Part shown: in pieces, positions 11,564 to 21,499 of the stretch
Position numbering within the stretch: position 1 is the stretch's first letter
How the letters are laid out: each line of letters opens with the position of its first letter
Origin: Halarcobacter mediterraneus
Lineage (GTDB): Bacteria; Campylobacterota; Campylobacteria; Campylobacterales; Arcobacteraceae
Assembly: GCF_004116625.1 (NCBI RefSeq)
Contig: NZ_NXIE01000003.1
Span: 186,001-250,000, forward strand
DNA length: 64,000 nt
Reading direction: 5' to 3'
The notes under the pieces: model-generated
The model's database searches: none
The model's input: only the letters and a program-made list of their open reading frames with translations
Told to the model about the DNA's origin: nothing
Translations under genes and position numbers: made by a program

Positions 11564-12292
11564 ATGATAGTAAAAACAATAGATAATTCTAACACTTTAT
11601 ATTCAACAAAATATAATCAACATTTTCATGATCTAAAAACAGGAGCTATAAAAGAGTCTTTAATAAAACATGTTATTCCAGCACTTAATTTTCATAAAGA
11701 AAAAAAACATCTAAAAATACTTGATATTTGTTTTGGACTAGGATATAACACTTTTTCTACTATAAACTATATCTTGGAGAATAATCTTAATAAAAAACTA
11801 GAAATTTTTTCCCCAGAACTAGATGAAAACCTTATTGAATCACTAAAAGAGTTTGAATATCCAAAAGAGTTTGAAAAAATATCTTATATAATAAAAAAAC
11901 TCCTTGAAAGAAAGAAATATCAAGATGAAAATTTAGAAATAGAACTTTTTTTAGGTGATGCAAGAGATTATATCAAAACACTTGATAATATAGATATTGT
12001 CTATCAAGATGCTTTTAGTTCAGAAGTTAATAATGAGCTTTGGACTGTTGAATATTTTGCTGATATCTTTAAAGCTTCAAATAATGATGTAATAGTAACC
12101 ACTTATTCTATTTCAAGTACTGTACGACTATCACTTTATAAAGCTGGTTTTGAAATATATGAAATCAATCCAACAGGAAAGAGAAAACAAACAATTGCAA
12201 TAAAAAATAAAAAAGAAGTTAAAGAAGCCAAATATATTGATATGCAATTAAAACAAACTAGAAATAAAGAGCTAAAAGCTCTTTATGATTAA
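11564..12292 (+). CDS. mnmD: tRNA (mnm5s2U34)-methyltransferase, MnmD-type (MnmC N-domain alone)
   Basis: A 242-residue SAM-dependent methyltransferase. Motif I is LDICFGLGYNTFST, a LGDARDYI stretch follows, and the family signature VYQDAFSSEVNNELWTVEYF contains the DAF(S) and W residues conserved in the methyltransferase half of MnmC. That enzyme makes the last methylation of the wobble uridine mnm5s2U34. Here the FAD-oxidase half of E. coli MnmC is missing, giving the stand-alone MnmD form. It starts 2 bases after the luxS terminator and its last 4 bases overlap the convergent chaN-like gene. Confidence 0.82.
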   Translation: MIVKTIDNSNTLYSTKYNQHFHDLKTGAIKESLIKHVIPALNFHKEKKHLKILDICFGLGYNTFSTINYILENNLNKKLEIFSPELDENLIESLKEFEYPKEFEKISYIIKKLLERKKYQDENLEIELFLGDARDYIKTLDNIDIVYQDAFSSEVNNELWTVEYFADIFKASNNDVIVTTYSISSTVRLSLYKAGFEIYEINPTGKRKQTIAIKNKKEVKEAKYIDMQLKQTRNKELKALYD

Positions 12293-13194
12293 TCTTTTTT
12301 ATATACAAATACAAAATCTGCTTTATTATTATCTATCTTAAGAGCTTTTTCTTTTTGAATCTGTTCATTTGAAATAATTACATATGGTAAATTACTTTGT
12401 CTTGCAAATCTTAATGGTATTCCAACATTTTGTTCCACATGCATAGCTCCAACAAAAACTAAAAGTTTATCTCTTGATGTTTTTAAAACTTTATTTGCTA
12501 TTTCTTTTACTTTATTAGCCATATAACTATCCCAAGAAACTTGAACTCTATACATTCTTTCTTCACAAGCCTCTTCACTTCTTTGAGGCATTTTATTACA
12601 ATGCTTTAAATAAGGCATTACAAGTTGCCTATGGGCACTAACACTCAAATCAAGAGAGTCATAAAATTCTTTTTCCTCTTTACTCATTTTATCAAATTGT
12701 TTTAATGAAATTTTCTTTCTATCTTTTTTTGGAATATTCATTCCATAAAGTCTTCCTGAATTCTTCTTCACAGCTTCATAGAGAGGTTCTACATATTCCC
12801 ATTTAAAACTTGTAAACTCATCCCAATGTCGTCTTTCTTTTAATCTTATTCCATCAATCTTTCCATCAGTATACATTTTAAGTAGTTCATTATGATTAGG
12901 AGTAAACCATTCATTTGCCAAGTTCAAATTATAACCCTTTTTATCTAATTTCTGTAAAAAATTTTCAAAGAATTCATGAGTTTTTTCTGTATTATGGTGG
13001 TCTCCAACAAAAATGATAGGATAATGTTCTACTTCTTCTACAAGCTTTTCTATATTTATTTCTTTTGCTTGTTTTACAGAGTAAATTCCTTCTTTTTTTT
13101 CAATATTATGAGTAAGAGGTGTAGCTAGATTATTTTTAGTACAGCCTGTAAGAAAAAAAATTGCTGCAATAATTGTAATTGAAAGTTTTAACAT
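12289..13194 (-). CDS. ChaN-like iron/heme-associated lipoprotein
   Basis: A 301-residue lipoprotein: a signal peptide ending in the lipobox LTGC (Cys at about residue 18), then the ChaN/DUF399 domain with PIIFVGDHHNTEKTHEFFE, NLANEWFTPNH and FVGAMHVEQNVGIPLRF. The His-rich GDHH and GAMHVEQ motifs are the family's conserved core. In Campylobacter a ChaN protein is encoded next to a TonB-dependent receptor and has been linked to heme/iron binding at the outer membrane. The same arrangement is seen here, 70 bases after the receptor gene. The precise biochemical role is uncertain. Confidence 0.82.
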   Translation of the reverse strand: MLKLSITIIAAIFFLTGCTKNNLATPLTHNIEKKEGIYSVKQAKEINIEKLVEEVEHYPIIFVGDHHNTEKTHEFFENFLQKLDKKGYNLNLANEWFTPNHNELLKMYTDGKIDGIRLKERRHWDEFTSFKWEYVEPLYEAVKKNSGRLYGMNIPKKDRKKISLKQFDKMSKEEKEFYDSLDLSVSAHRQLVMPYLKHCNKMPQRSEEACEERMYRVQVSWDSYMANKVKEIANKVLKTSRDKLLVFVGAMHVEQNVGIPLRFARQSNLPYVIISNEQIQKEKALKIDNNKADFVFVYKKD

Positions 13195-13264: not shown

Positions 13265-15142
13265 TTAGAACTTATAGTTCAATCCAATGTACGCAACTCT
13301 TCTTTCTAAATAATAAGGCTCATTGTTTTCAAACTTCTCATTAGTGATATTTTCTACCCCTAATCTTACAGTTAAATCTTTAGTGATTTTTTTAGAAACT
13401 TGGGCATTGAATATTGTATTAGGAGAAACTTTTTCATCAGCATTAATATATTGTTGTCCAACATAATTCACACTTATATAAGAAGAAATACCCCAAATGA
13501 AATCAGAATTTAAACCTGCATTAAAAGTATGTTCAGGTTTATAAGTTAGTTCATTTCCTGTCCCTTTATCTTCAGTTTTTACATATGTATAATTTGCATT
13601 TATTGAATGATTATCATTAAAATCATATTCCAGCCCTAATTCAAAACCTTTAGATTCAGCTTCACCAACATTTCCATATCTCATATCCCCAAAACTATCT
13701 TCTTCTGCTTTTATCATATTTTTTACATCTGTTTTGAAAATAGCTGATTTAAATGTGGCAGAATCACCATAAAACTCATAGGCTAACTCATAACTTTTTG
13801 AAGTTTCTGCTTCTAAATCATCATTTCCAAAAGGTGCCCCATGAGAACCCGTTCCAAAGCCATCAGAACCTTTTGTTACAGATGGAGCTTTAAATCCTTC
13901 TCCATAACTTGCTTTCAACCTTTGATTATCATCTATTTTATATACAAATCCAAGATTTGGAGAAAACTCTGTTCCATACTTTTTATTATCATCAAATCTT
14001 CCACCAAAAGTATAAATAAAATCACCCAATTCAATTTCATCTTGAAGATAATAAGCATTTGCTCTAGCATCAAAAGAATACTGCTTATTACCATTTGAAC
14101 GTAATCTATCATAAGAATCCTCTGAAGTTTCCGCTCCTAATATAATATAACTATTTTTTATCATTGAGATTTTTGCTTCTGCTTTTAATGAATCACTTTC
14201 AAGGCTATGAGTATATTGAGCAAACATACTATTAGCCTTTGAATCACTCTCTGCCCTAGAATAATCTATACTAAAAGATAAATCTTCAAAAGATTTTTCA
14301 TAACCTATGCTATAAATATCTCTTTCTATATCATAGGTAATAGTTTTATCAAAATCTTCCCTTTCCTCTTCACCTCTTATATATGAAGCATAAATATTTT
14401 GAGTATCATCTATATCATATCTTAATCTAGCAATTGCATCTTTAGTTTCCAGACCTTCAATAAAAGTTGCTTCATCTGTAGGTGTACCAAAAGCAGTATA
14501 GCCATTCCCTCCAGTTACATCTCGTTCACTTTTACTTGCACCTAGAAAAAGATAAAGTTTTTCAGCAATATTTCCGCCAATATTAGCATTAATTTTCTTT
14601 TCATCTCCACCATTCTCAGCTGAAGAAAAACCTGCTTGTACATTTACTTCACCATAAATTTTTTTACTATCTTTCTTAGTAATAATATTTATTACTCCAC
14701 CAATTGCTTGGGAACCATAAATTGAACTTTTGGGTCCTTTCATAACTTCAATTCTTTCTATCATATCAATAGGTACCCATGAATATTGAAAATCACTATG
14801 TCCTATATAATTATCCGAAGGACTTATTTTTTTCCCATCAACTAAAATCAATGAATACGTACTATCGAGCCCTCTAATAGAGATACTCTCTCTTCCTCCC
14901 ATCATTGCAGTTGCAGCAGTTTTTATGATTCCAGGTGTTCTAACTAAAATATCTTTAATATTTGTAGCATTTATTTTTTTTATATCTTCTTCTGTAATAA
15001 CTGTGATAGCACCTGCTAAGTCTTTTATAGACTTTTCACTTTTTGCTGTTACAATTACATTTTCTAATTTTTGTGTCTCTGCTAATAAATTTGTAGTTAA
15101 CAATGAAAGTGCAGTCATTGTAAATAAACTTTTTTTATACAT
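13265..15142 (-). CDS. TonB-dependent outer-membrane receptor, probably heme/iron uptake
   Basis: A 625-residue receptor when started at ATG 15142, which has an AAAGGAAAAAA ribosome-binding site and a signal peptide ending in LLA; the frame is open farther upstream but those residues are not protein-like. The plug domain (about 30-150) has VTVITEEDI-type sequence, GGRESISIRGLDSTYSLILVDGK and KGPKSSIYGSQAIGGVINIITK. The 22-strand barrel follows and ends in Phe (IGLNYKF). GFKAPSV and NDDLEAETSKSYELAYEF correspond to the FRAP/NPDL boxes of heme receptors, with a His between them. It moves ligand into the periplasm using TonB energy. TonB, ExbB and ExbD are not in the window. Heme as ligand is inferred from hutZ-like neighbours. 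Confidence 0.88.
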   Translation of the reverse strand: MYKKSLFTMTALSLLTTNLLAETQKLENVIVTAKSEKSIKDLAGAITVITEEDIKKINATNIKDILVRTPGIIKTAATAMMGGRESISIRGLDSTYSLILVDGKKISPSDNYIGHSDFQYSWVPIDMIERIEVMKGPKSSIYGSQAIGGVINIITKKDSKKIYGEVNVQAGFSSAENGGDEKKINANIGGNIAEKLYLFLGASKSERDVTGGNGYTAFGTPTDEATFIEGLETKDAIARLRYDIDDTQNIYASYIRGEEEREDFDKTITYDIERDIYSIGYEKSFEDLSFSIDYSRAESDSKANSMFAQYTHSLESDSLKAEAKISMIKNSYIILGAETSEDSYDRLRSNGNKQYSFDARANAYYLQDEIELGDFIYTFGGRFDDNKKYGTEFSPNLGFVYKIDDNQRLKASYGEGFKAPSVTKGSDGFGTGSHGAPFGNDDLEAETSKSYELAYEFYGDSATFKSAIFKTDVKNMIKAEEDSFGDMRYGNVGEAESKGFELGLEYDFNDNHSINANYTYVKTEDKGTGNELTYKPEHTFNAGLNSDFIWGISSYISVNYVGQQYINADEKVSPNTIFNAQVSKKITKDLTVRLGVENITNEKFENNEPYYLERRVAYIGLNYKF

Positions 15143-15182
15143 TTTTTTCCTTTGTATGTGTAAGTATAAATTTGTTAGCGAA

Positions 15183-15254
15183 ATTATATTAAGATTAAGA
15201 ATGAATATCAATATTATATTTTACAAATTGGTTTTATTTTTTTATAAATTGGAA
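15183..15254 (-). promoter_or_regulatory. Receptor promoter with tandem operator repeats
   Basis: On the minus strand: -35 TTGATA (15206-15211), exactly 17 bases, -10 TATAAT (15183-15188), then about 40 bases to the receptor ATG. Directly upstream of the -35 are two direct repeats, ACAAATTGG at 15223-15231 and ATAAATTGG at 15244-15252 (plus-strand spelling), 21 bp apart. The same arrangement with the same spacings is found before the hutZ-like gene. Binding of the adjacent AraC-type regulator is an inference. Confidence 0.7.
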
Positions 15255-15269
15255 TTTTTTATTGGAATT

Positions 15270-15427
15270 TTATGTACTTATAATTAAAACTTCTTTTTGT
15301 AGTTTTTTAGAATAAACAAACTCACTTTCAACATTAAAAATATCATATATATTATTATGAGTTAAAACCTTTTTAGTTTCACCTAAATATTTAATCTCCC
15401 CTTCTTTCATCATAACTACTTCATCAG
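15270..15427 (-). pseudogene. Displaced C-terminal part of the heme ABC ATPase (other frame)
   Basis: This is the continuation of the upstream ATPase in a different frame. It reads SDEVVMMKEGEIKYLGETKK and onward to a stop at 15270-15272, the normal end of a FecE/HmuV-type ATPase after the H-loop. It has no start or ribosome-binding site of its own. The break lies in the AT repeat at about 15428-15440. Joined to the upstream part, the protein would have about 267 residues, normal for the family. Confidence 0.8.
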
Positions 15428-16075
15428 AATATAATATAAATAGGCTTGATTAATATCATGAAGTATTGCACAAACTCCAATGTTCATCTCTTTTTGAAGT
15501 TCTTTTGTTAAATCTAAGATTTTATATTGATAAAAAATATCTAAGTTTAATGTAGGTTCATCTAAAAAAAGATATTTCTGTTTTTCTTTACTTGCATAAA
15601 GCTGAACAATAACTCTTGCAAGCTGGATTTTTTGCTTTTCTCCCCCTGATAACCCTTGATAATCTTTATCTTTCAATGGCTCAATATTTAATTTATCAAC
15701 TATATAATTTAAAATATCTTTTCTCTCTTTTGGATTTAACTTATATACATAAAGACCCATTTCTACAATTTCTATTGCTTTAAAACTATAGGGGAAAAAG
15801 AAGGATTGTTGTAAAACTGATCTTTTTAAAGCAAGTTCTTTATCATCAAAATCATCAATCTTTTTATCATCTAACGTTATTATTCCCTCTTGAATATCTA
15901 AATTCCTATTAATATTTTTAATGAGTGTTGATTTTCCACAGCCATTAGGTCCTACAATAGATAAAAAACTATTAGGTTTAATTTTTAAATTGATATTATT
16001 TAATATTTTTCTTTTTTGTATTGAAAAATTTAAATTTTTTACTTCATACACTTTTTTTCCTTTAAGCCGTTGCAT
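15416..16075 (-). CDS. Heme/iron ABC transporter ATPase (FecE/HmuV-like), frameshifted near the 3' end
   Basis: As it stands the frame encodes 219 residues and ends in the odd tail YYILMK. It has Walker A GPNGCGKST, a Q-loop (VLQQSFFFP), signature LSGGEKQKIQLARV, Walker B YLFLDEPTLNLD and the H-loop His in AILHDINQAY. About 50 further residues normally follow and are found in another frame (15270-15427), so the gene carries a frameshift in the AT-rich run at 15428-15440. All catalytic motifs precede the break, so a truncated ATPase may still work. GTG 16051, eight bases after AAAGGA, giving a start at VYEVKNL, is a better start than ATG 16075, which overlaps the permease by 14 bases. A sequencing error, slippage or true mutation are all possible. 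Confidence 0.85.
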   Translation of the reverse strand: MQRLKGKKVYEVKNLNFSIQKRKILNNINLKIKPNSFLSIVGPNGCGKSTLIKNINRNLDIQEGIITLDDKKIDDFDDKELALKRSVLQQSFFFPYSFKAIEIVEMGLYVYKLNPKERKDILNYIVDKLNIEPLKDKDYQGLSGGEKQKIQLARVIVQLYASKEKQKYLFLDEPTLNLDIFYQYKILDLTKELQKEMNIGVCAILHDINQAYLYYILMK

Positions 16076-17090
16076 TTTGTCTATTTTTAATTAAAAGCCA
16101 TAAAAAGAATGGAGCCCCAAGTAAAGATGTAATTATTCCAATAGGTAATTCTGCTGGTGCAATTACTATTCTGGCAAAAGAGTCAGCCCATATCAAAATA
16201 AAAGCTCCTAAAATAGCACTAAGAGGTAGATAGAACTTATGGTTTGAACCTACTAATAATCTAGCAAGATGTGGGACTACAAGACCTATAAAACCAATTA
16301 TTCCACAAAAAGCAACACTTGCACCAATTGCTAAAGAAACAAAAAAGATAATAAACTTTTTTAATCTTTCAGAATTTACTCCTGAATTTTTTGCTTCATC
16401 TTCACCTAAAAGCATTAAATTTAATTCAACTTTTTTTCTAATTGCAAAAATATAAATACCCACTACAATTGGTATTAATGTTAAAATAACCTTTATATCA
16501 CCATCAGCTAAACTTCCCATAGTCCAGAAAGTAAAGCTCTTAAGTTCTTCTTCTGTACTTACATAAGTAAATACTCCAACTAAAGCACCAAGCATTGCAT
16601 TTATTGCAATCCCAGCTAAAAGCATTACTGTAACTGCAACCTTATTATAAATTGTTGCTAATTTATAAACAGCAAAAATAGTTACTAAACTTCCTAAAAA
16701 AGCACTAAAAGGCAAAGATAAATAAGATAGAAACCCATCATAAAGTAAAGAAGGTAAAAAACTTCCTAATAACATAAAAATAACAACCCCGGCAGAAGCT
16801 CCAGCGGATATTCCAATAATAGAAGGATCTGCTAATGGATTTTTAAATAAAGTTTGCATCATTGCTCCACTAATACCAAAAGCAATACCAACTAAAACGC
16901 CTAAAGCAACTCTTGGAATTCTGATATCAGCTAAAACCTGATAATAAATCTTATTTTCTTCGGGACTTAACAAAGTATTTAATATTTCTGAAAAGCTAAT
17001 ACTAAAGGCTCCTATCGTAATATTAAGAAAAATAGATATAACTAACAAAATAAAAAATATCCCTATAAGGGATTTTTTTAAACCTACCAT
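16062..17090 (-). CDS. Heme/iron ABC transporter permease (FecCD/BtuC family)
   Basis: A 342-residue inner-membrane permease with about ten hydrophobic segments. Conserved FecCD features include RIPRVALGVLVGIAFGISGAMMQTLFKNPLADPSIIGISAGASAG near the N-terminus, written here in two overlapping family motifs, and GFIGLVVPHLARLLVGSNHK, the cytoplasmic loop that meets the ATPase. It forms the channel through which the binding protein's ligand enters the cytoplasm. It lies 8 bases after the binding-protein gene and overlaps the ATPase start, which indicates one operon. Confidence 0.94.
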   Translation of the reverse strand: MVGLKKSLIGIFFILLVISIFLNITIGAFSISFSEILNTLLSPEENKIYYQVLADIRIPRVALGVLVGIAFGISGAMMQTLFKNPLADPSIIGISAGASAGVVIFMLLGSFLPSLLYDGFLSYLSLPFSAFLGSLVTIFAVYKLATIYNKVAVTVMLLAGIAINAMLGALVGVFTYVSTEEELKSFTFWTMGSLADGDIKVILTLIPIVVGIYIFAIRKKVELNLMLLGEDEAKNSGVNSERLKKFIIFFVSLAIGASVAFCGIIGFIGLVVPHLARLLVGSNHKFYLPLSAILGAFILIWADSFARIVIAPAELPIGIITSLLGAPFFLWLLIKNRQNATA

Positions 17091-17098
17091 AGATTTAC

Positions 17099-17926
17099 TT
17101 ATTCACAATATGATAGGTGGTTATTATTTAACATGCAAGATAGATCTTGTAATGCACTATCTATTCTTACTGTAAAACCTGAAATTAAAAGCATATCCAT
17201 AGAGTAGATTTGTTTATTTTTTCCTGCATTAGTTGAAGAAACAATATTTTTATCAAGTCCACTGTCACCCGCATGATTTGAAGTAATTATTACATCAGGA
17301 TTCATTTCTAAAATAGATTCTGATGATATTTTAGTATATTGTTTAAAGTCAACAGCATTTACTCCTCCTGCTAATGAAATCATAACACCTGGTTTCGTTT
17401 GTCCACCTGCTGCCATGATAGTTCCTTTTCCCCTTGAGAATAAAAATAAAACTTTTGGTTTCTTTTTACCTTTAATTTCTTTTTGCATTTTCGCTATATT
17501 TTTTTCTATTCTTGAAATTATTTCTTTTGCTTTTTCTTCTTCATTTAAAATACTTGCAACTTGAGAAATTTTTTTCTTTGCAGCTTCAATTGAAGGCTTA
17601 TCCTCAATAATATATGTTTTAATCCCATACTTAGGAAGATTTTCAACAACTTTTTTAGGTTTTGCTAGACTACTTACAATTACAACTTCTGGTTTCAAAG
17701 AAAGAATACCTTCTTGTGGTAAGCTTAGCCAGTAACCAACATTTGGTAATTTAGAAGTTACTTCTTTTGGATAGATACTAGATAAATCAACTCCAATTAA
17801 TTTATCTTTATGTCCTAAAGCAACAATAGTTTCAGTTATACTTCCACCTACACTTACTATTTTTGAGGCATAAGAACTTATGGTTAATAAACCGCAAAAT
17901 AATGCAACTCTTACAAATCTAATCAT
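17099..17926 (-). CDS. Periplasmic heme/iron-binding protein (HmuT/ChuT-like)
   Basis: A 275-residue class III binding protein with a signal peptide (about 1-20, cleavage near SYA-SKI). KIVSVGGSITETIVALGHKDKLIGVD is the typical start of HmuT/BtuF-type domain 1, followed by VGYWLSLPQEGILSLKPEVVI, a long linking helix (about 105-150) and domain 2 with MMAAGGQTKPGVMISLAGG-like sequence. It hands its ligand to the FecCD permease next in the operon. Its start overlaps the end of the hutZ-like gene by 8 bases. A cysteine pair near the C-terminus (LSCMLNNNHLSYCE) is unusual and could form a disulfide. Confidence 0.9.
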   Translation of the reverse strand: MIRFVRVALFCGLLTISSYASKIVSVGGSITETIVALGHKDKLIGVDLSSIYPKEVTSKLPNVGYWLSLPQEGILSLKPEVVIVSSLAKPKKVVENLPKYGIKTYIIEDKPSIEAAKKKISQVASILNEEEKAKEIISRIEKNIAKMQKEIKGKKKPKVLFLFSRGKGTIMAAGGQTKPGVMISLAGGVNAVDFKQYTKISSESILEMNPDVIITSNHAGDSGLDKNIVSSTNAGKNKQIYSMDMLLISGFTVRIDSALQDLSCMLNNNHLSYCE

Positions 17927-18464
17927 TTTTATTTAATCCTTCTTCATGTGTTCCTCCATGAGCTTTACCACCCATAGTATTAAGTTTACTTATTTTCTTG
18001 TTTGATTCATCAATCTTAAATGCAGCACCAAACCCTAAAACTATATTTCCATCATAAGGACTTAATTTATAAAATCTTGAATCAGGCATCTGTCTTATCA
18101 ATGAAGCGTCTGAACCATGTTTTTGCTCAAATAATTGAGCAATTTTCTCAAATCGATCATCATTTTCTTCAAATTTTTCTGCTTTTGCTTTAAAGTACAT
18201 TCTTCTTCTTGCATAAATATGACTTGTAACACTTTCATCTTCAATAAAAAGCAAATGTGCTTTTTTTGTATTATACATATTGTGTGAATGCTGTACCGCT
18301 GTACTTATAAACACATAAAAGTTACTTTCTTCATCTTGTACATAAGGTGAGTAACTTGCAAAAGGTTCGCCTTCACTACTTACTGTTGATAATACAACTG
18401 TCTTAATATTATCTAAGAAACTATCCAGTTCTTTTTGTGCTTCTTCTTTCTTCATCATTTTCAT
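17919..18464 (-). CDS. hugZ: HutZ/HugZ-family heme-degrading or heme-binding protein
   Basis: A 181-residue protein from ATG 18464, which follows AAAAGGAAAAAA; the open frame extends upstream but that part is promoter DNA. The split-barrel flavin-reductase-like fold is suggested by TVVLSTVSSEGEPFASYSPYV and FYVFISTAVQHSHNM. The C-terminal MGGKAHGGTHEE resembles the heme-ligand region of HutZ/HugZ, with H169 near the position of the HutZ heme histidine. These proteins open the heme ring to release iron in the cytoplasm. At 181 residues it is nearer V. cholerae HutZ than the longer Helicobacter HugZ. It heads the operon with the binding protein, permease and ATPase. A HutX partner is encoded at 21.5 kb. 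Confidence 0.9.
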   Translation of the reverse strand: MKMMKKEEAQKELDSFLDNIKTVVLSTVSSEGEPFASYSPYVQDEESNFYVFISTAVQHSHNMYNTKKAHLLFIEDESVTSHIYARRRMYFKAKAEKFEENDDRFEKIAQLFEQKHGSDASLIRQMPDSRFYKLSPYDGNIVLGFGAAFKIDESNKKISKLNTMGGKAHGGTHEEGLNKND

Positions 18465-18512
18465 TTTTTTCCTTTTTAATTCAAAATATATATTTCTAAA
18501 TAAATTTTTCAA

Positions 18513-18582
18513 AGTATAATTTAAATAATAGTGAATATCAATATTTTCTATTATAAATTGGAACTTTTTTTTCACAAATTAG
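18513..18582 (-). promoter_or_regulatory. hutZ-like operon promoter with tandem operator repeats
   Basis: On the minus strand: -35 TTGATA (18536-18541), exactly 17 bases, -10 TATACT (18513-18518), with the ATG about 48 bases beyond. Upstream of the -35 are ATAAATTGG (18553-18561) and ACAAATTAG (18574-18582), plus-strand spelling, 21 bp apart and at the same distance from the -35 as in the receptor promoter. The distal repeat lies within the last codons of the araC-type gene. Confidence 0.7.
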
Positions 18583-19513
18583 ATTTTTTTGTTATAGCCT
18601 TTGGAGAACAATTATATTTACTTGAAAAAGCATAAGAAAAACTTCCTTGATTGGTATATCCCACCATAGTTGAGACCTCTTTAATAGAGTATTTATTTTC
18701 CTTTAAATACTTAACAGCTTTTTCTAAACGTATATCTTTAAGATAATTGTGAATTGTCTTATGAAAAATTTCTTTGAAGCCTTTTTTTAATTTTGATTGA
18801 TTTAATGCAACCTTCTTTGATAAAAGCTCAATTGTTATTTTTTCATTAAAAGTATTTTGAAGTATCACTTCAGCCTTTTTAACTCTTCTTATATCTTCTT
18901 CATCTAATCCATCTACCTTAAAACTTTTATTATCAATTTGTTCTAAAACATAAAGTATTACCTCTGTTGTTTTATTTTTTAAATAAATTTTGTCAAGACC
19001 ACTTGTGTATTCTCTATTAAATAATTCATAAAATTTATTTTTTATATTTGGTTCATAAAATTTCATAAAAAAAGGTTCTTTAAATATATCTCTAAAGTAA
19101 CCATTTTCATCCAGATATTCTTCATTTAGAGTAATACAAATATACTTTATATGACTTCCTTCTTTATTTAACAAGGATTCATTTATATCTTGACTATATT
19201 CAACACTTATTTCATTCTCATTATATGTTGTTTTCTTATTATTAACTTGATTTAATTTTTCAACAACTCCTTGAAGAACAATTCTAATTTGTAAATGCTT
19301 ATTCTTTGAACGTAGTTTTTGAATATATGATTGTTTGATATTATTATCAACAATATTCAAATATATATTATCTTCAACCATTGCATTAACAATTTTAAGT
19401 TCTATAAATTGATTGCTAATCTTGGCAACTTGTTTTACAAAAGATTTGCTTTCTTCTGCTTTGATTAAAACATTACCAGTTTTAAACAATTTTGATTTAG
19501 ATAAGTTAGTCAT
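18572..19513 (-). CDS. AraC-family transcriptional regulator (PchR-like) of the heme locus
   Basis: A 313-residue regulator. The N-terminal part (1-205) is a poorly conserved sensor domain with YCITLNEEYLDE-like and IRIVLQGVVEK stretches of the kind seen in PchR-type iron regulators. The C-terminal AraC DNA-binding domain (about 210-310) has two helix-turn-helix units: ITIELLSKKVALNQSKLKKG and YSIKEVSTMVGYTNQGSFS, then the PKAI end. PchR-type regulators activate siderophore or heme uptake genes upon ligand binding. Its own end overlaps the distal operator repeat before hutZ, so it is well placed to control both downstream operons. Start ATG 19513 follows AAGAGAG. The ligand is not readable. 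Confidence 0.85.
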   Translation of the reverse strand: MTNLSKSKLFKTGNVLIKAEESKSFVKQVAKISNQFIELKIVNAMVEDNIYLNIVDNNIKQSYIQKLRSKNKHLQIRIVLQGVVEKLNQVNNKKTTYNENEISVEYSQDINESLLNKEGSHIKYICITLNEEYLDENGYFRDIFKEPFFMKFYEPNIKNKFYELFNREYTSGLDKIYLKNKTTEVILYVLEQIDNKSFKVDGLDEEDIRRVKKAEVILQNTFNEKITIELLSKKVALNQSKLKKGFKEIFHKTIHNYLKDIRLEKAVKYLKENKYSIKEVSTMVGYTNQGSFSYAFSSKYNCSPKAITKKSNL

Positions 19514-19527
19514 TTTTTACTCTCTTA

Positions 19528-19540
19528 AATAATGATTATT
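19528..19540. promoter_or_regulatory. Possible Fur-box-like palindrome between the divergent units
   Basis: AATAATGATTATT is a 13-base near-palindrome (one central mismatch) that resembles the Fur hexamer pattern, placed 15 bases upstream of the AraC-type start. The whole 225-base divergent gap is very AT-rich, so chance occurrence is possible; a second short element, TAATATCAATAA (19591-19602), resembles the -35 element of the heme operons. Confidence 0.35.
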
Positions 19541-19738
19541 AAAATGAATTTTATTTTAATGTTGCTTTTAATCATTTTAAAGTTTAAAATTAATATCAAT
19601 AACTATAAGCTTTCCTTATTAAAATCCTTTCTTTAACTTTAAAAAAGCTTAAAAAAACAATTCTTAAAAAACTCTATTTTTATCTTAATTTCAAACGAAC
19701 TAGCTTTTTTATAGAATTAAAAAAAATAAAGAGAGAAA

Positions 19739-21499
19739 ATGGAAAAAATAGATTTAAAATATATATGGAAAATACTTCTAAAAAAAAGAAAAATATTAAT
19801 TACAGGACAATTATTAACAGTTATTGCAATCTTAATAAGTATTCCTATTCCATTAATGCTTCCTGCTTTAGTTGATGAAGTTCTTCTAGGAAATCCTGCT
19901 TTTTTTGTATCTTCAATAAATAAAATATTTGGGGAAGGAAATGAATTTTATTATATTTTTATAATAACTGTTTTAGTAATTCTTTTAAGACTTCTTCATC
20001 TTATAATATCAGTTTTACTTACAAAAATATTTACAAATATCTCAAAGTATATAACTTTTAGAATAAGAGAAAAGCTACTTTTACACTTAAAAAATGTTTG
20101 TATGAATGAATATGAAAGTTTAGGCAGTGGTTCTATTACTGCAAACTTGATAACAGATATAAATACCTTAGATAATTTTATTATGTCAGGAATTAGCAAA
20201 CTTGTAACTTCTGTTCTAAGTTTATTTGCTGTTGCAATTGTAATTATTATGATTCATCCATTATTGGGATTAATGATTATAATTATACAACCACTTATAA
20301 TGTATTTATCCAAAAGAATTGTGAAGAAAGTTGGTGATTTAAAAAAAGAAGAGAATCAAGCAATTTCGGAATTCCAGGATAATATTGGAGAATCCTTGGA
20401 TTTATTTGGACAAATCAAAGCTAGCAATAAAGAAGATTATTTTTTTGAAAATGCTATTAGTAAAGCAAAGAATATTCAAATTAGCTCAAATAAATTCAGT
20501 TACAAAAATGTGATATATCAAAAATTCTCTTTTACACTATTTTTGATTTCTTTTGAAGTTTTAAGAGCCAGTGGCTTATTAATGGTTGTTTATAGTGATT
20601 TATCAATTGGTATGATGTTAGCTATGTTTGCATATATTTGGTTTATTATAAATCCTGTAAATGATATTCTTTCATTCCAATATTTTTATTCAACTGCAAA
20701 AGCAGCATTAAATAGAATAAATAAAATTTTACAACTAAAACAAGAACCAAGAGGAATAGAATCTTTTAATAATAAAGGTTTAAATATTAAATTAAGTAAT
20801 CTTAATTTTTCTTATAATAGTGGTGATAAAATTTTAAGTGATATTACAATAAATATAAAACAAGGGGAAAAAGTAGCCTTAATTGGTGCTAGTGGTAGTG
20901 GAAAAACTACTTTAGCTCAAATAATTGCAGGCTTTTATACAAAAGACAGTGGAGAAATCACTTATAATAATATTTCAATTGAAAATATAGATAAAAAAGA
21001 ATTAAGAAAGAATCTTTTCTTAGTACTTCAAATGCCTATACTTTTTAATAATACACTAAGGTTTAATCTAACTATGGGGAAAGAAATAAAAGAAGAAACT
21101 ATTTATAAAGTTTTAGAAATAACTCAATTGAAAGATGATGTATTATTAATGAAAGATAATATTGATACAATTGTTGGAAAACATGGTATAAGACTAAGTG
21201 GAGGACAAAGGCAAAGATTAAGTATTGCAAGAATGCTCATAGCAAATCCTTCAGTTGTAATTTTTGATGAATCCACCTCAGCTTTAGATGTTCATACAGA
21301 AGCAAAAATATTTAATAACTTAGAAAATATTTTAAAGGAAAAAACTGTTATTACTATTGCTCATAGATTAAGTACAATAAAAAATGCTGATATAGTTTAT
21401 GTACTTGATAAAGGAAAAGTTATTCAAAGTGGTAACCATAATGATTTAGAATTAGAAGAAGGTCACTACTTAAATTTTATAAAAAAACAATTAATATAA
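19739..21499 (+). CDS. ABC exporter, fused membrane and ATPase domains (MsbA/MdlB type)
   Basis: A 586-residue half-transporter. Residues about 15-310 form a six-helix exporter domain (first helix near ILITGQLLTVIAILISIPI). Residues about 340-580 form the ATPase: Walker A GASGSGKTT, signature LSGGQRQRLSIARML, Walker B VVIFDEST and H-loop TIAHRLST. Such proteins work as dimers exporting lipids, peptides or drugs. It is transcribed away from the AraC-type regulator and followed after 9 bases by a hutX gene, so a role linked to heme or a porphyrin-related compound is possible, but nothing in the sequence names the substrate. ATG 19739 follows AAAGAGAG. Confidence 0.9.
   Translation: MEKIDLKYIWKILLKKRKILITGQLLTVIAILISIPIPLMLPALVDEVLLGNPAFFVSSINKIFGEGNEFYYIFIITVLVILLRLLHLIISVLLTKIFTNISKYITFRIREKLLLHLKNVCMNEYESLGSGSITANLITDINTLDNFIMSGISKLVTSVLSLFAVAIVIIMIHPLLGLMIIIIQPLIMYLSKRIVKKVGDLKKEENQAISEFQDNIGESLDLFGQIKASNKEDYFFENAISKAKNIQISSNKFSYKNVIYQKFSFTLFLISFEVLRASGLLMVVYSDLSIGMMLAMFAYIWFIINPVNDILSFQYFYSTAKAALNRINKILQLKQEPRGIESFNNKGLNIKLSNLNFSYNSGDKILSDITINIKQGEKVALIGASGSGKTTLAQIIAGFYTKDSGEITYNNISIENIDKKELRKNLFLVLQMPILFNNTLRFNLTMGKEIKEETIYKVLEITQLKDDVLLMKDNIDTIVGKHGIRLSGGQRQRLSIARMLIANPSVVIFDESTSALDVHTEAKIFNNLENILKEKTVITIAHRLSTIKNADIVYVLDKGKVIQSGNHNDLELEEGHYLNFIKKQLI

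Follow-up and report, generated by a model that had tools for sequence, protein, structure and literature searches.

AraC binds as a dimer to two 17-bp half-sites at 21-bp spacing, for example araI1–araI2. At araBAD, AraC uses adjacent inducer sites (PMC7499043). Iron-dependent AraC-type activators of siderophore genes are also known, and some of them are controlled by Fur (PMC545781, PMC7600106, PMC8639528). PchR is reported to activate its receptor gene and to repress its own gene, and IurV to act towards repressing iron uptake (PMC7600106). Among the open papers searched, none described heme uptake controlled by an AraC-type regulator in the Arcobacter group, and none offered a direct precedent.

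We analyzed a 64,000-nucleotide stretch of the Halarcobacter mediterraneus genome (the window), which contains two heme operons and an AraC-type gene. Judged from sequence, two sites in it are very probably operators of an AraC-family activator, the product of the gene at 18572–19513 (probability about 0.85), with repression by Fur and effector-dependent activation of the heme operons. The features concerned are listed below; TGATAATNATTATCA was the 14-position reference sequence for Fur-box scoring.

12289–13194, minus strand: ChaN-type heme-binding lipoprotein gene, probably in operon 1 (PF04187, 2.6e-31; adjoins tonbR in relatives)
13265–15145, minus strand: TonB-dependent outer-membrane receptor gene (tonbR), first of operon 1 (PF00593, 7.5e-57)
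15183–15211, minus strand: promoter 1, with TTGATA at 15211–15206, a 17-bp spacer and TATAAT at 15188–15183
15196–15210, minus strand: Fur-box-like sequence TGATATTCATTCTTA, 11/14 to TGATAATNATTATCA, covering the -35 and spacer
15223–15252, minus strand: operator 1, CCAATTTAT-AAAAAAATAAAA-CCAATTTGT in gene orientation, upstream of the TonB receptor gene
15416–16075, minus strand: heme ABC ATPase gene, HmuV-like (heme ABC ATPase model, 1.7e-62, under the NCBIfam equivalog cut-off)
16062–17090, minus strand: FecCD-type permease gene, HmuU-like (PF01032, 1.1e-93)
17099–17926, minus strand: gene for a periplasmic heme/iron-complex binding protein, HmuT-like (PF01497; IsdE among the best NCBIfam matches)
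17919–18467, minus strand: hutZ/hugZ-like heme-utilization gene, first of operon 2 (PF01243; PNPOx fold)
18513–18541, minus strand: promoter 2, with TTGATA at 18541–18536, a 17-bp spacer and TATACT at 18518–18513
18526–18540, minus strand: Fur-box-like sequence TGATATTCACTATTA, 11/14, covering the -35 and spacer
18553–18582, minus strand: operator 2, CTAATTTGT-GAAAAAAAAGTT-CCAATTTAT in gene orientation, upstream of the hutZ-like operon
18572–19513, minus strand: AraC-family regulator gene, 313 aa (Pfam HTH_18, PF12833, 1.6e-16; PF00165 also matched)
19527–19541, minus strand: Fur-box-like sequence TAATAATCATTATTT, 11/14, 13 bp upstream of the regulator start

The repeats read CYAATTTRT on the minus strand in both promoters, with 21 bp between repeat starts. 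Those of operator 1 are at 15223–15231 and 15244–15252, and those of operator 2 are at 18553–18561 and 18574–18582. The two-promoter design given in the preliminary description was reproduced exactly. The AraC-type gene (18572–19513) was said to be overlapped at its 3' end by the second site, and the distal half-site of operator 2 (18574–18582) does overlap it there. The repeats had also been described as abutting the -35. This is not so, because 11 bp separate the 9-mers from TTGATA at both promoters. If an AraC-type half-site of 17 bp began at the repeat, it would reach to about 3–5 bp upstream of the -35. AraC at araBAD has the same features as proposed here, namely a dimeric two-HTH regulator and, upstream of the -35, tandem direct half-sites that recur every 21 bp. 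It differs in that the target here is iron/heme uptake and that 11 bp separate the nearest 9-mer from the -35.

With zero mismatches, AYAAATTRG-N12-AYAAATTRG occurred twice in the 2.83-Mb genome, only at operators 1 and 2. At three mismatches, six matches were found in the window against 5.6 expected, which is background level and indicates that the exact repeat form and its context matter. Allowing up to two mismatches gave 22 sites in the own genome and 13 for the reversed control; as a site finder, the 9-mer pattern at two to three mismatches was uninformative. A recurrent match in the permease-coding sequence (16637–16666; 1–3 mismatches in relatives) was rejected as an operator, as it reflects protein conservation.

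The HutZ-like protein matched the NCBIfam models TIGR04110 (1.9e-33) and TIGR04109 with 115.6 and 113.1 bits, below their equivalog cut-offs of 225 and 240; the gene is therefore named only HutZ-like. In HutZ/HugZ heme-utilization operons, a HutZ-type gene is followed by heme ABC importer genes, as here. Two differences are that this set has its own AraC-type regulator and that its scores are under the NCBI equivalog cut-offs. The TonB receptor matched TonB-hemin as well as siderophore models, and these matches point to no single substrate. In this assembly, the frame of the heme ABC ATPase gene (15285–16075, minus strand) is broken near the C-terminus, at about 15440; the rest continues in another frame and matches intact relatives. 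The break may be a real frameshift or an error of the assembly.

The regulator contains the C-terminal two-HTH domain, as indicated by PF12833, PF00165, the helices of the structure model and PDB matches. The model (mean pLDDT 76) has a beta-rich cupin-like N-domain, a linker and the two-HTH C-domain. Its closest solved folds were ToxT, Rns and CsvR, and cupins were also matched. Whole-chain TM-scores were about 0.3 with high rmsd, probably owing to a different orientation of the domains. Taken by itself, the C-terminal domain fitted solved AraC-type HTH domains at 1.6–1.8 Å. ToxT, Rns and CsvR share the beta-rich N-domain, the helical linker and the two-HTH domain with the model. They differ in sequence (12–18% identity), and a sign of a virulence role is absent here. 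NCBIfam gave generic AraC-type matches only, and the label "PchR-type" from the preliminary description agrees with the regulator by context and fold only.

A close ortholog of the regulator was found in eight of 104 family genomes, the own genome included, with 65–71% identity in the seven relatives. A ninth genome (G085) has an ortholog at 47% identity. The gene order chaN–tonbR–hmuVUT–hutZ–araC, next to the divergent ABC transporter gene, was kept in 7/7 relatives. That gene (19739–21499, plus strand, 586 aa) adjoins the regulator in 7/7 close relatives and in L168, a held-out genome from another collection. The intergenic region between the two genes contains no operator.

The module was present at every tonbR promoter, duplicates included, and at every hutZ promoter of the seven relatives. 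Aliarcobacter vitoriensis and Arcobacter vandammei are among the relatives that have it. Twenty promoters from eight genomes had the common form operator-11(12)-TTGATA-17-TATAAT, with TTAATA replacing TTGATA in one. Gap and spacer values of 5 and 23 from a loose search were artefacts; the aligned sequences read 11 and 17. Site conservation in relatives keeping these genes, proposed earlier as a check, was thus found for both operons in every genome with a close regulator ortholog. At hutZ, the distal box (box 1) lies over coding sequence, and protein constraint could account for part of its conservation. Box 2 and the tonbR site are free of this overlap, and the operator of G085 follows the stop codon.

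Duplications were observed at some of these loci. The heme-type TonB receptor gene is tandemly duplicated in three of them (L052, L056 and L057; tonbR1/tonbR2), and each copy has its own operator. In L054 (10046–10840; G057), the 3' tail of the regulator gene and the operator are tandemly duplicated ahead of hutZ. About 765 bp separate the two operator copies, and the frames in this interval are broken.

A sequence-only profile of the operator (R1) was searched in the 104 family genomes. In the own genome, R1 scored 40.9 bits at operator 2, the best match, and 27.5 bits at operator 1; the next best match scored 18.3. The genome-wide search for further repeat pairs thus found no other good site in the own genome. 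Matches of at least 27 bits numbered 19 in the 104 genomes, all of them at these promoters and in the eight ortholog genomes. Weak matches were found in all 104 genomes and were treated as background; those inspected (G062, G063 and G019) sit inside genes. Most of the sites found by R1 had been used to train it, so independent support comes only from L168, G085, the leave-one-out scans and the absences.

In leave-one-genome-out scans, the true sites took first rank at 8/8 loci. A matrix built from the two window sites alone likewise put the known sites first in 7/7 relatives. L168, outside the training set, had exactly two good matches, upstream of hutZ and tonbR, with the 11-bp gap kept. G085, also held out, contained CGGATTTAT-N12-CGGATTTAT with the 21-bp period kept, just past the stop codon of the regulator gene and ahead of a different operon (an exbB-like and a CobN-type gene, with a TonB receptor gene farther along). 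The operator was sought at seven hutZ-type loci without the regulator ortholog and was absent. Three of these loci (L091, L092 and L095) retain the hmuTUV genes and a Fur-like box. Such loci also include the second hutZ-like gene of the own genome (G000:C2:256851–257375; 67% identical), which has no operator.

These results suggested that the AraC-type gene at 18572–19513 is very probably the reader of both operators, given the conservation, the ranking, the fits in two held-out genomes and the absences without the regulator. The prediction that the neighboring regulator reads the sites is therefore supported by the sequence comparisons and by co-occurrence. It is very unlikely that another regulator, either another AraC paralog or a response regulator, reads the repeats and that the neighboring gene is a bystander. 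The own genome does encode other AraC homologs (a total of 11 matches), and their receptor promoters show the same layout. However, the half-site sequences differ at those paralog promoters, operator and close ortholog co-occur in 8/8 family genomes and in L168 and G085, and hutZ-type loci without the ortholog also have no operator.

In most of the 20 promoters, TTGATA and the following bases were exactly where TGATAATNATTATCA matched best, with scores of 10–13/14; in four (L052_tonbR1, L055_hutZ, L056_hutZ and L052_hutZ), the best match lay elsewhere. The mean best score per promoter was 10.95, compared with 9.35 in shuffles, and a score of 11 was reached by 65% of promoters and 8.8% of shuffles. 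The Fur-like box of the regulator gene scored 11–13/14 and lay 9–13 bp ahead of the start in all close orthologs; in G085 it lies 65 bp upstream. These matches are moderate evidence that Fur may control all three, the two operon promoters as well as that of the regulator gene. Conservation of TTGATA may be due to Fur as much as to sigma.

The module might instead be a Fur-controlled promoter copied between the operons, with the upstream repeats being A/T-rich chance. Both promoters are very A/T-rich, and their common TTGATATTCAYT is Fur-like. But the repeats are kept at 20 promoters of eight genomes and took first rank in the leave-one-out scans, and hutZ promoters with a Fur-like box but without the regulator lack the repeats. 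The probability of such copying is close to negligible.

Operators read by the AraC-type regulator would fit the following mechanism. Each 21-bp period would be made up of one half-site of about 17 bp and a gap of 4 bp. A regulator dimer would sit on two tandem half-sites just upstream of the -35 at both regulated units, the TonB-receptor/chaN operon and the hutZ-hmuTUV operon. When iron is plentiful, Fur would occupy the -35 and spacer of both promoters and the box near the regulator start, and all three would be silenced. Under iron starvation, Fur would leave and the regulator would be made. Its beta-barrel N-domain would then sense an effector (heme itself, most likely, or a product of its uptake), and RNA polymerase would be recruited at both promoters. 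Of these steps, we infer binding, activation over repression, the effector and Fur binding.

By analogy with AraC, two half-sites just upstream of the -35 are a standard activating arrangement. The regulator could bind these sites and still repress, or act both ways depending on effector in the manner of PchR, and PchR and IurV are precedents of repression (PMC7600106). This is highly improbable, since the half-sites are placed as is usual for an activator, ahead of the -35 and off the promoter itself, and the promoter is already covered by a probable repressing element, the Fur-like box. The regulator's own promoter also argues against it: an operator, as for autoregulation, was sought upstream of the regulator gene and found in no ortholog.

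The 21-bp layout was also observed at paralogous regulator–receptor pairs. In one locus of the own genome (L096; G000:C2:285000–304000), four further AraC-type genes are each paired with a divergent TonB receptor gene, and ABC transporter genes are also present. Its receptor promoters have paralog-specific repeats that differ from the heme half-sites, with the 21-bp period unchanged. Forty more loci were added. For a dereplicated set of 41 TonB-receptor promoters next to AraC paralogs, the 60 bp ahead of the -35 were compared. Self-similarity in the 41 promoters peaked sharply at lag 21 (mean 6.71 vs -0.19 in shuffles; z 10.3). A strong lag-21 repeat was present in 17/41 paralog promoters and 4/74 controls, and two of the four positive controls were ABC transporter genes adjoining AraC/receptor genes. 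The 21-bp layout is thus generic and common to dozens of other iron-uptake promoters of this bacterial family.

Half-site similarity was 0.59 within a promoter and 0.44 between promoters (0/5000 permutations). It correlated with the identity of the DNA-binding domain (Mantel 0.45) hardly better than with that of the N-domain (0.44), indicating that shared ancestry explains much of the correlation. In these alignments half-sites and regulators were shown to co-diverge, and the correlation does not distinguish a recognition code from ancestry. HTH1 types among the paralogs include SAINECYLKKDFK and VALNEFKLKYGFK.

Tentatively, and at somewhat short of even odds, the Arcobacteraceae may have multiplied AraC regulators, one per TonB receptor, on a fixed chassis that combines two 17-bp half-sites repeating every 21 bp, a Fur-like box across the -35, and TATAAT. 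The half-site sequence alone would vary, and one branch would be a dedicated heme sensor. The putative family-wide chassis is more interesting than the heme operators themselves. If it is real, it would be a natural code book linking AraC recognition helices to half-sites. Through the common 21-bp layout, many uncharacterized AraC–TonB receptor pairs become predictable regulons, and the paralog pairs are natural material for studying how half-sites are recognized by AraC proteins. For heme uptake in the Arcobacter group, the analysis offers a precise candidate operator that is open to direct testing.

Among the closest known systems are AlcR, YbtA, PchR and FoxR. As with them, an AraC-type regulator gene whose own promoter contains a Fur-like box adjoins a TonB receptor gene, and the receptor promoter is apparently under joint Fur and AraC control. 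Two differences are that the regulator gene here has no operator of its own and that the gene set is one for heme (hutZ-like, hmuTUV and ChaN), not for a siderophore. By this likeness, the system is probably iron-dependent AraC control in the style of AlcR, YbtA and PchR, here for heme uptake.
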